A stretch of 64,000 bases of DNA, taken from contig NZ_WFLM01000003.1 in NCBI RefSeq assembly GCF_009208775.1, positions 473,374 through 537,373 on the forward strand. The letters are read 5' to 3'. The notes under the pieces were generated by a model. That model saw only the letters and a list, made by a program, of their open reading frames with translations, searched no databases and was not told the origin of the DNA. Within the stretch, counting starts at the first letter, position 1. Each line of letters opens with the position of its first letter. Below are positions 7,132-63,993 of this stretch, piece after piece. The translations under genes were made by a program, and so were the position numbers. This DNA comes from Silvanigrella paludirubra (GTDB lineage: Bacteria > Bdellovibrionota_B > Oligoflexia > Silvanigrellales > Silvanigrellaceae).

Positions 7132-7992
7132 TTATTTCTTTTTAGCAATTGGACCACATAAAATATTTAATGTTCTTGTAAGCGTTTCTTTCATTTCAGG
7201 GCGCTTTACAATTCTATCAACTACTCCGTGTTCAAAACAAAATTCAGCTGTTTGAAAATTATCTGGTAACTTTTGACGAATAATATTTTCAATTACTCTT
7301 CTACCAGCAAATCCAATTGTTGATTTAGGTTCAGCATAATTGACATCTCCTAACATAGCAAAACTTGCTGCAACTCCCCCTGTTGTTGGATCACAAAGAA
7401 TACTTATGAAAGGAAGTCCAGCTTCTTTATGCAAAGCAATTGCTGCAGATGTTTTTGCCATTTGCATTAAGGAAATAAGTCCTTCATGCATACGTGCTCC
7501 ACCACTACTGCTTACTAAAATTACAGGCATTTTATTTTTTCTAGCTCTGGCGAACATTCTATGAATTCTTTCTCCAACAACTGAACCCATACTGCCACCC
7601 ATCCAGAAAAAATCTAACACACCAATTGCAATTGGTCTGTCATTCATTAATCCTGCGCCGGTTAAAATAGCGTCATATTTTTTTGTCTTTTTTGCCATAT
7701 TTATTAATCGGTCTTGGTAAGAGCGTCCATCATCAAACTCAAGTGGATTCGTACTGCATAAAGTATGATCCCATTCAAAAAATGTATTATTATCTATAAG
7801 AAGTTCAATGCGGTGTTCTCCTGGTAGCCTATGGTGGTAGCTACAAGTTGGACATACAAGATGGTTTTCTTCAAGATCAGATATTAAAACAATTTCGGAG
7901 CATGAAGGACATTTTTCCCAAACACCACTTGGCAGAGATTTTTTCTCTGATACATCTTGAAGTTTTGCTGGTTCGCGCGATAGCCATCCCAT
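7132..7992 (-). CDS. accD: Acetyl-CoA carboxylase carboxyltransferase subunit beta
   Basis: Beta subunit of the carboxyltransferase that makes malonyl-CoA for fatty-acid synthesis. The N-terminal zinc ribbon has cysteines at 28, 31, 47 and 50, followed by the crotonase-like fold with VSSSGGARMHEG and DPTTGGVAASFAMLGD. The start MGWLSREPAKL at 7992 is preceded at 8 bases by a perfect GGAGGT (8001-8006) and matches the family's usual beginning. The longer frame from an ATG at 8037 adds 15 residues across that site and is rejected. It leads the accD-folC-lptD run and is divergent from tamB. Confidence 0.96.
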   Translation of the reverse strand: MGWLSREPAKLQDVSEKKSLPSGVWEKCPSCSEIVLISDLEENHLVCPTCSYHHRLPGEHRIELLIDNNTFFEWDHTLCSTNPLEFDDGRSYQDRLINMAKKTKKYDAILTGAGLMNDRPIAIGVLDFFWMGGSMGSVVGERIHRMFARARKNKMPVILVSSSGGARMHEGLISLMQMAKTSAAIALHKEAGLPFISILCDPTTGGVAASFAMLGDVNYAEPKSTIGFAGRRVIENIIRQKLPDNFQTAEFCFEHGVVDRIVKRPEMKETLTRTLNILCGPIAKKK

Positions 7993-60421: not shown

Positions 60422-60480
60422 TTATTTATTTTTTAATTTTTCCTATGGTTTTTTTTAATGAATTTTTTTGAATTTTGCTA

Positions 60481-60540
60481 GGGATATATTTCCTATGTCA
60501 AAAATATGACATTGTGTTTGACAGTAGGAAATATTTACCC
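60481..60540. repeat. Long imperfect inverted repeat (hairpin)
   Basis: Left arm ATATTTCCTATGTCAAA (60486-60502) pairs with right arm TTTGACAGTAGGAAATAT (60517-60534) with one bulged base. Outer GGG and CCC extend it. A smaller nested TGTCA/TGACA repeat (60496-60500 with 60507-60511, roughly) lies at the tip. No T-run follows, so it is a poor classical terminator. It lies 14 bases from a parA-associated palindrome. Confidence 0.7.
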
Positions 60541-60547
60541 AAAAAAG

Positions 60548-60563
60548 GATGTGACGTCACATC
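60548..60563. repeat. Palindrome copy 1, candidate ParB-like binding site
   Basis: GATGTGACGTCACATC is a perfect 16-bp palindrome. It is identical to the core of the site behind parA; the match extends to 21 bases including the AAATT flank on one side. On the minus strand it is followed by CTTTTTT, so it could also serve as the tcdA terminator. Lies 8 bases beyond the tcdA stop. Confidence 0.55.
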
Positions 60564-60571
60564 AAATTGAA

Positions 60572-61444
60572 TTACCCCTGTCCAAGCTTTAAAACCTTTT
60601 TAAACTCATCATATGTAGGTACTTTTTCAAAAGTATCCCTGTTTTTAAAGTCAATTCCTTTTAAATAATGTTGCAATAGGTCACCAGCAAGCCACATTCC
60701 AAAAATAGGAGGAATATAACTAATGGTTCCAAGCATGACTCTTTTATGCTGGCATGCACCAAATTCTTTTTCTATTGTTGGACAAATACAATTCCATTCA
60801 GTACCTGGAACAGCTTGTTCAGGATCTATCGCTTCTTCTGTTGAATAAACAACTCGAACGCCATTTGTAACTCCAACTTCACGAAGTTTTAAGCGAATTT
60901 GTTTTGCAAATTTATCATTTTTTGTTTCTGAAATATCGGCGCATTTAATTTGTGATGGATCTAGTCTGCTTGCTGAACCCATGGAACTCCAAATAGGAAT
61001 ATCTTTCTTTTTGCATCTTGCGATTAAATCAACTTTTGGAATTAATGTATCTATGCAATCAATAACAGCATCTACGGGTTGCCCTGCCAAACGTTCAGCC
61101 TCTTCAAAAATGAAATCGTTTTTATCGGGATGATGATGTTCATCAATTCCAAAGTAACTTGCCAATGGGTTTATTTTTTGAAGTCTCTCGACTAAAAGAT
61201 CGACTTTCTTTTTACCTACTGTATCTGTAAAGGCATGGATCTGGCGATTTACATTGGTAACACAAACGTCATCATGATCGACTACAGTGACTTTGCCTAC
61301 AGCAGCTCTTGCTATGGCTTCGGCAGCAAAACCACCTACTCCTCCAGCTCCTACGATGAGTACATGTAAATTTCTAAATCTTCCAAGGCCTTCTCTTCCT
61401 ATAAGAAGCTCTAACCTGCTGAAGCGATGATTACGGAATGCCAT
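60572..61444 (-). CDS. tcdA: tRNA threonylcarbamoyladenosine dehydratase
   Basis: Cyclises t6A37 in tRNA to ct6A using ATP (E1-like family). 290 residues beginning with RFSRLELLIGREGL; ATP-binding GAGGVGG at 32-38, then VDHDDVCVTNVNRQ. CIDTLIPKVDLIARCKKK and SSMGSASRLDPSQI are typical TcdA segments. AAGGAT ribosome site before ATG 61444. Its base composition is less AT-biased than the capsule genes. Convergent with the DUF4153-like gene. Confidence 0.93.
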   Translation of the reverse strand: MAFRNHRFSRLELLIGREGLGRFRNLHVLIVGAGGVGGFAAEAIARAAVGKVTVVDHDDVCVTNVNRQIHAFTDTVGKKKVDLLVERLQKINPLASYFGIDEHHHPDKNDFIFEEAERLAGQPVDAVIDCIDTLIPKVDLIARCKKKDIPIWSSMGSASRLDPSQIKCADISETKNDKFAKQIRLKLREVGVTNGVRVVYSTEEAIDPEQAVPGTEWNCICPTIEKEFGACQHKRVMLGTISYIPPIFGMWLAGDLLQHYLKGIDFKNRDTFEKVPTYDEFKKVLKLGQG

Positions 61445-61585
61445 TTTAAATCCTTATATATTCTTTAAGTGAAAGGGGATCCCCCTGAATCTTTTCTTAG
61501 TTACTTTTAAAAAATCTTTCCACAAAAATTTAAAAGGATTTAAAAAAAGAAAATATATAAATTTAATAAAGTTATAATTGATTTG

Positions 61586-61978
61586 TTATTCTATTAAATT
61601 TTGAGGAGCTTTTTGTATGGTGAGGCGTTTCCAACCTTTTATGGATCTTACTATGACAATTGCAGAAGCAAGTAAAAATAATGGAATTGAAAAAATCCAC
61701 CCTATAAAAGGAATGAAACCAAAAACCCATGCTAAAAAATAAAAAATAGAGGCAAACCAAAAGGTTTGAATTTGCCAACGGTAGTGATGGTCAAGCCAGC
61801 TTTCTTTAACCTGTGTTCTAAATAGGTATGTGATTATCAAAGGAATTAAAGAAAAAAGACCGCCTGTAAAAACAGAAATAAGTTGAAGCACGTATACTAC
61901 CATTGATACATTTTCGGTCATGCTTTTTGCAGGCAAATTATTTTGAGATGAATTTTTATAATAATCATTATGTTGCAT
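61586..61978 (-). CDS. DUF4870-like small membrane protein
   Basis: 130 residues. After a polar N-terminus come helices at about 25-50 (MVVYVLQLISVFTGGLFSLIPLII), 70-90 and 95-115 with the intervening SWLDHHYRWQIQTFW. That HHYRWQI turn is the usual DUF4870 (Tic20-like) signature. GAGGAC ribosome site before ATG 61978. Overlaps the end of the partition-partner gene by 11 bases, so it is probably co-transcribed. Function unknown. Confidence 0.85.
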   Translation of the reverse strand: MQHNDYYKNSSQNNLPAKSMTENVSMVVYVLQLISVFTGGLFSLIPLIITYLFRTQVKESWLDHHYRWQIQTFWFASIFYFLAWVFGFIPFIGWIFSIPLFLLASAIVIVRSIKGWKRLTIQKAPQNLIE

Positions 61979-62990
61979 AATCGTCCTCTATCAGGGCTGA
62001 AGTCGCGCCCAAGTGCTTTGAATGATATCGTGAATCTTGAGGTTTTGAAAGCATTTCAGACATTTTAGACATTTCTTCGGATAAGTTTTTAAAGGCTCCC
62101 AAAAGACTCCATTTATCGGATTGCTCTAAATCATTTAAATTTAGAGATTCTAATTGTATTTTTATTTTTTCTAAATTTTCTGTGATATGTCGTATATGAA
62201 CTTTTTGAGTACTAGTATGCGTTAGGTTTGGTTCTTTCCCTAATGTCTTAGATACGATGTTTCTTAATGACTTCACACTTACACTTGTGGGAAGGTTTTC
62301 TAAAATTTTGTTACGTTGGTCACTAGGCACGGGTAACAAAGCTTTAAAATGCTCAAAGCCAAAATCGGTTCTTTGTTTAGAAGAAATATCAAATTCTTCC
62401 GCAACTCGAATATATTGGTTTGCTGTCGTATAATTCATATTTAAATTTTCATCACAAAAAGCTTTCCAGCCAACTTTATTGCCTTCATAAAAGCGCTCTT
62501 TTATTTCTCCAATTAATTTGCCTTTAAGAAAAAAAGCTTCTGTTTGTGCATTATCAATTCTATTTAAAAATGAAATATATTCATTTTTATCCCATTTATT
62601 TCTTTCTAGACGGAGGCGCTCAAAATTGTATTGTATTTTAGTCACTGTGTAGGCTAGATCTTTTTTTTCTACAATGGGACTTGATGGCGTGTTAACGCTA
62701 TCTAAAATGAGCATTTCATTTTCATTTTTTGTTACTTCAATTTCTGCATTTTGTGATTGCAATTCTACCTTAGGTAATTCTTGCGGAGAAGTTTTAATTG
62801 AATGTAAATGAGATGAAATATTTTTTTCTTCATTTGCCGTATTTAAATTAGAATCTATTTTTTGGACTATTTCATTTTGTGATTCTGATGAATTTATTTT
62901 TTGTATTTGCTTATTTTCTTCTGGCTGAATTTCTGGTTCCGTTCTTGAAAATAAACCCCTAAGAGCTTTTTTAGGTTTTTGAATATCCAT
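61968..62990 (-). CDS. Non-canonical ParB-position DNA-binding protein (DUF3102-like)
   Basis: 340 residues. An N-terminal positively charged segment (PKKALRGLFSR) precedes a long polar, probably disordered region to about 110. A helical region at about 145-205 contains KGKLIGEIKERF, GWKAFCDENL and NMNYTTANQYIRVAEEFD. This looks like the helix-turn-helix of DUF3102-type proteins. A second helical part, LLPVPSDQRNKILENLP with VSVKSLRNIV, follows. The usual ParB CTPase motifs (GERR, PXQPR) are absent. AGAGGA before ATG 62990. It follows parA with 88 bases between, which hold palindrome copy 2. Confidence 0.75.
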   Translation of the reverse strand: MDIQKPKKALRGLFSRTEPEIQPEENKQIQKINSSESQNEIVQKIDSNLNTANEEKNISSHLHSIKTSPQELPKVELQSQNAEIEVTKNENEMLILDSVNTPSSPIVEKKDLAYTVTKIQYNFERLRLERNKWDKNEYISFLNRIDNAQTEAFFLKGKLIGEIKERFYEGNKVGWKAFCDENLNMNYTTANQYIRVAEEFDISSKQRTDFGFEHFKALLPVPSDQRNKILENLPTSVSVKSLRNIVSKTLGKEPNLTHTSTQKVHIRHITENLEKIKIQLESLNLNDLEQSDKWSLLGAFKNLSEEMSKMSEMLSKPQDSRYHSKHLGATSALIEDDYAT

Positions 62991-63056
62991 TAAACAATTT
63001 CCTCTCTATTTAAAATCAAAATGAAGTAATTTATTATTAAGCATTTATTTTTTCAG

Positions 63057-63078
63057 TTTGATGTGACGTCACATCAAA
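63057..63078. repeat. Palindrome copy 2, candidate centromere-like/operator site
   Basis: A perfect 22-bp palindrome: the core GATGTGACGTCACATC with TTT before and AAA after. It abuts the parA stop codon and precedes the partner gene by 66 bases. Its orientation-specific 21-base match to copy 1 (60548-60568) exceeds what chance would give in this composition. No T-run follows on the minus strand, so it is not a terminator. The sequence differs from the standard chromosomal parS. Confidence 0.65.
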
Positions 63079-63993
63079 TTATTCCACTTGCGCCTCAAAT
63101 TTATTTTCAGAAGTAACAATAGGGATATCCATTTTATTATTTTGTAAGCATATTTCTTTACTTAAAGATAAGTAATCTTCTGCACCTGTGCAGGAAGGAT
63201 CATAATTTAAAACAGATTTTCTTGCCTTCACCGCTTCAGCAAGTTTTACATTTTGACGAATACACGTTTTAAATACAGAATTTTTTAATAAATCTATGTT
63301 CATTACTTTATCAACAATTTCTCTAGATAGCTTTGTTCGTGAATCAAACATAGTAACAACAAGGCCTGAAATTTTTAACTTTGGATTTAATTCTTCTTTT
63401 ATCAAGCTTATTGTTTCTAATAATAAATTTAATCCATCAAATGCAAAAGGATGCGCTTGTAAAGCGATTTGAACTTCATTAGCCGCATTCAATGCATTTA
63501 CACTAAGTAAACCAAGGCTTGGAGGAGTATCTAAAATAATAAAATCGTAAAGAGGGTGAAGGGGGAGTAAAGCTTTTTTTAAGCGGTTTTCACGACCAAT
63601 TTCGCCCGCCATTCTGCTTTCAAACTCTGATAGTTCAATTGAAGCTGGTGCAATATGTAAATTTTCATATTGAGTTTCTAAAATAACATCTTCAAGATTT
63701 GTTTTTTTAGGTTCTACTAATAATTCAAAGACGCTTTTATCAATATCATTTATATCAATACCAAGACCTGTGGTTGCATTACATTGAGAGTCTAAATCAA
63801 CAACAAGCACTCTTTGACCTAATTTGGCAAGGCCAGCTGCGATATTTATTACTGTTGTTGTCTTGCCGCATCCCCCTTTTTGATTGCAAACAGAAATTAT
63901 TCTTACCGAATTGGGACGCTCATACATTTTTGTCATTGCTTTTGGTATATTTGATTTTGTAGCACCAATTCTTTTTACTTTTTTTTCTGTCAT
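63079..63993 (-). CDS. parA: ParA-family partition ATPase
   Basis: 304 residues. A basic N-terminal extension (about 30 residues) precedes the deviant Walker A KGGCGKTT (39-46). Then come VVDLDSQCNATTGLG (Walker A'), FIILDTPPSLGLLSVNAL (Walker B) and AHPFAFDGLNLLLETI. The order and length fit the Soj/ParA group that drives DNA segregation by nucleoid-bound ATP cycling. The start codon is seven bases from the window edge, so the promoter is not visible. Its partner gene downstream is not a typical ParB. Confidence 0.92.
   Translation of the reverse strand: MTEKKVKRIGATKSNIPKAMTKMYERPNSVRIISVCNQKGGCGKTTTVINIAAGLAKLGQRVLVVDLDSQCNATTGLGIDINDIDKSVFELLVEPKKTNLEDVILETQYENLHIAPASIELSEFESRMAGEIGRENRLKKALLPLHPLYDFIILDTPPSLGLLSVNALNAANEVQIALQAHPFAFDGLNLLLETISLIKEELNPKLKISGLVVTMFDSRTKLSREIVDKVMNIDLLKNSVFKTCIRQNVKLAEAVKARKSVLNYDPSCTGAEDYLSLSKEICLQNNKMDIPIVTSENKFEAQVE

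Follow-up and report, generated by a model that had tools for sequence, protein, structure and literature searches.

Here we describe a candidate chromosome partition locus in a 64,000-nucleotide stretch of the Silvanigrella paludirubra genome (the window; contig C4, positions 473374 to 537373 of the 3.93-Mb assembly, hereafter G000). The locus comprises a gene for a ParA ATPase, a gene for a putative adaptor (the partner) in the position normally taken by parB, and two copies of a palindrome, all of which were located where an initial annotation of this DNA had placed them. In window coordinates, the features are as follows.

63079 to 63993, minus strand: ParA ATPase with the deviant Walker A motif KGGCGKTT, from a clade separate from canonical chromosomal Soj.
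63057 to 63078: proposed parS-like site 1, a perfect 22-bp palindrome between parA and the partner gene, with its core GATGTGACGTCACATC at 63060 to 63075.
61968 to 62990, minus strand: ParT-like partner (putative adaptor) of 340 amino acids, with a predicted disordered N terminus, long helix, ParB/Noc-like helix-turn-helix (HTH) domain, linker, and C-terminal helices.
62934 to 62978, minus strand: N-terminal basic motif KPKKALRGLFSRTEP (partner residues 5 to 19), the proposed ParA-binding peptide.
62235 to 62537, minus strand: predicted ParB/Noc-like DNA-binding domain (partner residues 152 to 252), which holds the invariant block YTTxNQYIRV.
62373 to 62393, minus strand: spot in the partner gene at which five relatives carry an exact site (codons for FDVTSHQ); the window encodes FDISSKQ here, and the site is lost.
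60548 to 60563: proposed parS-like site 2, an exact copy of GATGTGACGTCACATC behind tcdA.
61586 to 61978, minus strand: DUF4870-like small protein (Pfam E 0.0035, under the cut-off), co-linear within the genus.
60572 to 61444, minus strand: tcdA-like gene of the ThiF family, at the end of the cluster.

The core of site 1 lies 3 nt past the parA stop codon, and site 2 lies 8 nt past that of tcdA. The two copies have 21 bases in common (GATGTGACGTCACATCAAATT) and are separated by 2512 bp, which agrees with the description of a perfect palindrome abutting parA and an exact copy behind tcdA. A scan of the window for GATGTGACGTCACATC at up to 3 mismatches gave 2 matches, against 0.06 expected by chance, and the genome-wide search that had been proposed, run with up to 2 mismatches, added no others, the reversed pattern giving 0. 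With no further genomic copies at that threshold, a repeat element was set aside. The site was also claimed to differ from the usual parS, and indeed, even with up to 3 mismatches allowed, the stretch from 533 to 538 kb contained no match to canonical parS (TGTTTCACGTGAAACA). The matS consensus is GTGACRNYGTCAC; matS was rejected because its spacing differs.

For comparison, we used 14 genomes of the family Silvanigrellaceae, including the window's own, and 42 other genomes of the class as an outgroup. The partner was present in 13 of the 14 family genomes and in none of the outgroup; the sole miss was G001, an assembly that is 72% complete. A profile search over 58 genomes returned the same 13. 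In all of these, parA lies directly upstream of the partner gene, and the adjoining ParA orthologues are 59 to 86% identical to the ParA of the window. The palindrome follows the same distribution. At up to 1 mismatch it was confined to the 13 partner-bearing genomes, all outgroup matches having 2 mismatches. When we searched with fixed half-sites and a free center (GATGTGNNNNCACATC), the 14 family genomes yielded 24 sites, 23 of which lay in the locus, none farther than 1.66 kb from the partner gene (reversed pattern, 1 site; outgroup, 6 sites). Fourteen of the 23 locus sites were exact, and every one of the 14 exact sites among the 56 genomes fell in the locus; G005 had sites with 1 or 2 mismatches only. 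Each genome carries one to three sites, in loci that span 27% to 57% GC.

Although present in 13 of 13 loci, the site shifts its place, being found in the gap between parA and the partner gene, at three spots inside the partner gene, or behind tcdA. Fourteen of the 23 locus sites are intergenic (in the parA/partner gap or behind tcdA), all of them in the window's genus, and the remaining 9 lie inside the partner gene, in 8 of the 13 genomes. The window is not among these 8, its sites flanking the partner gene; in six genomes (G008 to G013), all sites are intragenic. At the spot listed above, five genomes (G006, G010, G011, G012, and G013, three of which belong to one genus) have the same seven codons, TTT GAT GTG ACG TCA CAT CAA, at 21 of 21 nt, while other invariant-residue codons are fully identical in only 6 of 57 cases. 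The partners of these five are just 37 to 62% identical to one another and 32 to 60% identical to that of the window. Moreover, the peptide is altered where the site sits elsewhere, as in the window (FDISSKQ rather than FDVTSHQ), whose sites are outside the gene. We therefore conclude that selection here acts on the DNA and not on the peptide.

The initial annotation described the partner as lacking the GERR and CTPase motifs of ParB, and this was borne out. No match at an E value of 1 or less was obtained in Pfam or NCBIfam, and therefore no ParB_N; the ParB_N CTPase domain (GERR) was absent from the window protein and the homologues scanned. Comparison with the canonical ParB profile likewise gave no relation (P 0.35), the best hit in a profile search of solved structures had an E value of 0.56, and a single-protein scan of genome contigs was unproductive. 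Common to the 12 distinct homologues are a basic N-terminal motif (KPKKALRGLFTRTEP), in which P6, K8, R11, L13, F14, and T17 never vary (12 of 12), then a variable stretch, the block containing the invariant YTTxNQYIRV, and a C-terminal part. The further claim of a DUF3102-like HTH fared unevenly. By sequence, DUF3102 (PF11300) remained below the Pfam cut-off, with a best E value of 0.015 and 2 of 12 homologues matching, and the PF11300 model found nothing in 58 genomes; by fold, the likeness was better, viral DUF3102 proteins matching the predicted structure with a Foldseek E value of 6.6e-4. PHROG 15609 also resembles the HTH region by sequence (11 of 12 members; E values down to 4.4e-8).

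Two AlphaFold2 models, one of the window protein and one of the G012 protein, both built from the same nine sequences, predict a disordered N terminus, a long helix (residues 135 to 167), a helical core with an HTH fold, a low-confidence linker, and C-terminal helices (residues 261 to 315). In VIA-align, the DNA-binding domains of ParB, Noc, and KorB led for both models, with Noc 7nfu for the window model (Z 10.3, 2.4 A, 95 residues) and Noc 6y93 for the second (Z 10.7, 2.3 A, 110 residues). Noc and KorB thus resemble the partner in the predicted fold of this domain, but both have a CTPase domain, and neither is known as a partner of such a ParA. The ribbon-helix-helix fold requires a strand; in both predictions the partner is all-helical and strandless, and ParB and Noc stand at the top of the matches.

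The closest described counterpart appears to be ParATS of the Streptomyces coelicolor plasmid SCP2. As reported for this system (PMC12260392), ParT is a ParB-like protein that has no CTPase domain. Its loading site is an 18-bp parS lying inside parT itself; from there it diffuses with no need of CTP, and an N-terminal peptide serves to activate ParA. Of 45 ParA-paired ParT homologues, 44 came from Actinomycetota. Our system is alike in having a ParA that adjoins a ParB-like adaptor without a CTPase domain, in domain order (a flexible N-terminal peptide, long helix, HTH, linker, and a C-terminal part that dimerizes in ParT, the order in the partner being predicted), and, in the partner's relatives, in carrying a palindromic site inside the adaptor gene just past the recognition helix. 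In this sense the adaptor is not of a wholly new kind, ParT having the same architecture. The systems differ in that ours is chromosomal and belongs to Silvanigrellaceae, that its site is GATGTGACGTCACATC rather than the TGTCTCCAATTGGAGACA of SCP2, that there are one to three sites, which in the window lie outside the gene, that the partner's N terminus has a ParB-like RGLF motif, and that the system coincides with the loss of canonical ParA in the genus.

The SCP2 record itself contains, in parT, one perfect 18-bp palindrome just past the recognition helix, presumably parS. We assembled 11 parT genes, from SCP2 and from 10 of 66 further matching plasmid records (L158, from Deinococcus, was excluded for want of an adjacent parA), and 8 of them had a palindrome of 14 to 22 bp just after the recognition helix, at 42 to 46% of the gene. 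By hhalign, the partner and ParT are co-linear through the long helix, the HTH, and the loop, and the parT palindrome falls within about five residues of the intragenic site in the partner's relatives. The likeness in plan is strong, and kinship is unproven. The palindrome core in those 8 parT genes (among L147 to L157) is CCAATTGG, which sits in the loop after the recognition helix and is unlike the site of the partner family, at nearly the same spot.

With canonical ParABS (Soj-Spo0J-parS), the locus shares a ParA ATPase, a similar predicted HTH fold, a 16-bp palindrome, and a basic N-terminal RGL peptide. It differs in the absence of the ParB_N CTPase domain, in its site and ParA clade, in lying 284 to 346 kb from dnaA, and in coexisting with canonical ParB and parS in the same genome. 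SegAB of Sulfolobales (PMC12284271) is likewise chromosomal and pairs a ParA orthologue with an adaptor other than ParB, its short palindromes being clustered around its own genes and mostly intragenic; SegB, however, is a ribbon-helix-helix protein whose site, TCTAGASTCTAGA, occurs 46 to 49 times genome-wide, as opposed to one to three sites and a helical model for the partner. In Bdellovibrio, there are three ParAs, of which ParA3 pairs with ParB (PMC7186360). The accessible text of the S. cienkowskii genome paper (PMC12321486) makes no mention of parB, partition, or segregation, and in the open-access literature of one library we found no description of the partner system and nothing relevant on ParA together with DUF3102.

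A canonical ParAB-parS elsewhere in the genome had been named, together with a lack of binding to the palindrome, as a finding that would speak against a partition role for the locus. Part of such a system exists. G000 encodes an intact ParB (ParB_N, HTH_ParB, and ParB_C) with two perfect copies of TGTTTCACGTGAAACA beside it at C4:254 kb, and no adjoining ParA. At the corresponding place in G008, G010, G012, and G013, Soj is followed by a ParB that opens with the peptide GLGRGLGALL. All six members of the window's genus that were examined, like G009, have no Soj beside ParB, and their ParB lacks this peptide, which 4 of 4 Soj-bearing relatives have (longest frames were read, leaving out G004 and G011). 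Likewise, a Soj search of 12 genomes gave matches of 71 to 100% in G008, G010, G012, and G013, whereas in all 7 genus members tested, and in G009, no match exceeded 43%. The RGLF peptide of the partner, in turn, is kept in genomes whose ParB has lost its own. The absence from the genus of both canonical ParA and the ParA-binding peptide of ParB therefore strengthens the case for the partner system. Other ParA-family ATPases (about 29 to 38% identity) persist in the genomes of the genus, so that the new ParA is the "only motor" with respect to the Soj class. In a phylogenetic tree, the new ParAs were separate from the canonical Soj clade (99/97); two long branches among them carry a warning of long-branch joining, and the tree was used for this separation only.

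Some further observations concern these canonical elements. Each of the 6 genus members examined has 2 to 6 canonical parS beside ParB (G000:C4:253-255 kb = L057, L106, L118, L143-L145), and G007 has six perfect copies upstream of parB at intervals of 330 to 333 bp (L118:9026-10703). A further ParA-family ATPase, again at about 29 to 38% identity, was seen in nine family genomes (e.g., G003:C1:454987, G007:C1:1914582, and G010:C2:271897). In G009, the gene that comes after the second ParA (C349) does not resemble that of the partner.

A plot of the palindromes around the replication origin had also been proposed. In six genomes of the genus, canonical parS is 46 to 62 kb and the new sites are 284 to 346 kb from dnaA, both to the same side (G007 was treated as circular). 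Sign changes of the GC skew (20 samples) fell near dnaA and around 1.3 Mb in G007; in G003 the skew was noisier, with a change near dnaA. At 284 to 346 kb from dnaA, the locus is therefore in the origin-proximal part of one arm and not at the origin or terminus.

Taken together, we think it likely that this locus is a chromosomal system of ParA, a ParT-like adaptor, and a parS-like site; very likely it works like ParATS and remains in the genus after the loss of canonical ParA. The proposal that the partner is the ParA adaptor and the palindromes are its sites draws support from co-occurrence, from selection on the intragenic site, and from the predicted fold, and from these we infer binding. 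By this model, a partner dimer would recognize the 16- to 20-bp palindrome (half-site TGATGTG) through its ParB/Noc-like HTH. Together, the long helix before the HTH and the helices at the C terminus would make up a clamp able to leave the site and to gather on neighboring DNA without CTP, as ParT does. The disordered N terminus, whose RGLF motif we propose as a ParA-binding peptide by analogy with ParB and ParT (PMC12462528 and PMC12260392), would contact nucleoid-bound ParA-ATP and trigger ATP hydrolysis, and the resulting ParA gradient could move or hold the chromosome region about 284 to 346 kb from dnaA. In the window's genus, the partner system probably provides ParA-driven chromosome movement, because canonical ParA and the peptide of ParB have been lost while ParB and parS stay. 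A bolder and more tentative idea, which we regard as possible, is that the genus has rewired segregation, such that ParB-parS was uncoupled from ParA and the ParA-driven step passed to a CTP-independent chromosomal ParA-adaptor-parS system that has a centromere of its own.

Several points weigh against this reading. The gene pair, the site, their linkage, selection on the site, and the loss of canonical ParA and the ParB peptide can be read from sequence, whereas the fold is predicted, and the clamp, ATPase activation, and segregation, like binding, are arrived at by inference only. The models are middling (mean predicted local distance difference test scores of 63 and 65; predicted template modeling scores of 0.40 and 0.42), and VIA-align cautions that a Z below about 13 in mostly helical models may reflect a common arrangement only; the RuBisCO factor Raf1 scores almost equally with the second model (Z 10.4). 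A Foldseek search of the PDB gave no significant match, the best being Spo0J-parS at an E value of 0.72. A sequence relationship to ParT is not established; hhalign gave a probability of 10.7% with P 0.0029, and an unrelated control pair gave 0.045. Five genomes have a single site, the sites are away from the origin, and neither tcdA nor the DUF4870-like small protein has an evident role in partition. Canonical ParB may still use the new ParA via another contact, and some of the intergenic copies likely serve as hairpins or terminators.

Among other explanations, the partner could regulate its own operon, either by autorepression or as a roadblock, with the palindromes as operators and ParA positioning a cargo other than DNA. 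The restriction of the sites to the operon would fit, and HTH domains of the ParB type and of KorB are also able to repress transcription. However, no site lies upstream of parA in any of the 13 loci at up to 3 mismatches within the stretches read, and a role as promoter operator was set aside on this ground; the sites are instead in the partner gene and after parA or tcdA, and the N-terminal peptide resembles a ParA-binding motif. We consider this alternative unlikely.

It is also conceivable that the locus came in with an ancient plasmid or phage that integrated, and that it is now a captive partition module with no part in chromosome movement. The resemblance of the HTH region to PHROG 15609 and viral DUF3102 proteins points in that direction, as does the fact that the nearest described system is plasmid borne. 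Against this, the module is kept in 13 of 14 family genomes with a ParA that is 59 to 86% identical to the window's and a conserved site, and no match was found in plasmid or phage collections (by tblastn) or in IMG/VR viral contigs. An ancient plasmid origin is possible and a recent relic is excluded; lack of a present function seems to us distinctly improbable.

The last alternative, by which the palindromes would be intrinsic terminators, or else RNA hairpins, that follow parA and tcdA, was already foreseen in the initial annotation, for which copies lying solely behind genes would have undone the proposal. In the window, the copy after tcdA matches a terminator-like pattern when the minus strand is read, and the one after parA does not. 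Among the 14 intergenic copies, a T-rich tail follows 6 when the sense strand is considered and 10 when either strand is allowed, the latter including 7 of 7 behind tcdA, by a rule applied to any stem length in AT-rich DNA without a shuffled control. Intergenic copies in the genus also have extended palindromic flanks whose sequence varies between species, and these longer flanks together with the tails in 10 of 14 make a hairpin or terminator role likely for some copies; those behind tcdA likely have a double role, as site and terminator. Such a role cannot explain the 9 of 23 sites within the partner coding sequence, where tails occur in 0 of 9 on the sense strand and 1 of 9 on the antisense strand; a stricter count, of tails after the full extended stem only, gives 2 of 14 intergenic and 0 of 9 intragenic sites. 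Since the sites can be intragenic, have a fixed half-site sequence, and are bound to the locus (only 1 of 24 family sites lies beyond it), termination is a possible added role of intergenic copies and not the reason for the site, and as a full account it is very improbable. Long palindromes of at least 32 bp surround some intergenic copies (L049:8215-8246 and L050 around 7417-7432), as if a hairpin were also kept.

ParT had already demonstrated that a ParB-like adaptor can work without CTP (PMC12260392). A phylogenetically distant counterpart on a chromosome, whose centromere in the relatives occupies almost the same position within the gene, suggests a broader origin or spread of adaptors that lack a CTPase domain. 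Within the literature searched, we found no account of such a chromosomal system outside Actinomycetota, nor of the canonical motor being replaced in this way in nature. Since both systems occur in related genera and a single Soj-class ParA in the window's genus, the family offers a natural experiment on which ParABS function is needed at the origin. The two functions of ParABS are the loading of SMC by ParB and movement by ParA.

Of the neighboring genes, tcdA probably has a function unrelated to partition. Beyond the window's genus, the DUF4870-like gene after the partner is replaced by one for a secreted-looking protein of 346 to 409 amino acids (L060 to L065; likeness judged by eye). Finally, between the convergent DUF4153 and tcdA genes, at 60480 to 60540 of the window, we noted by eye an imperfect inverted repeat (ATTTCCTATGTCAAA / TTTGACAGTAGGAAAT) that is possibly a terminator.

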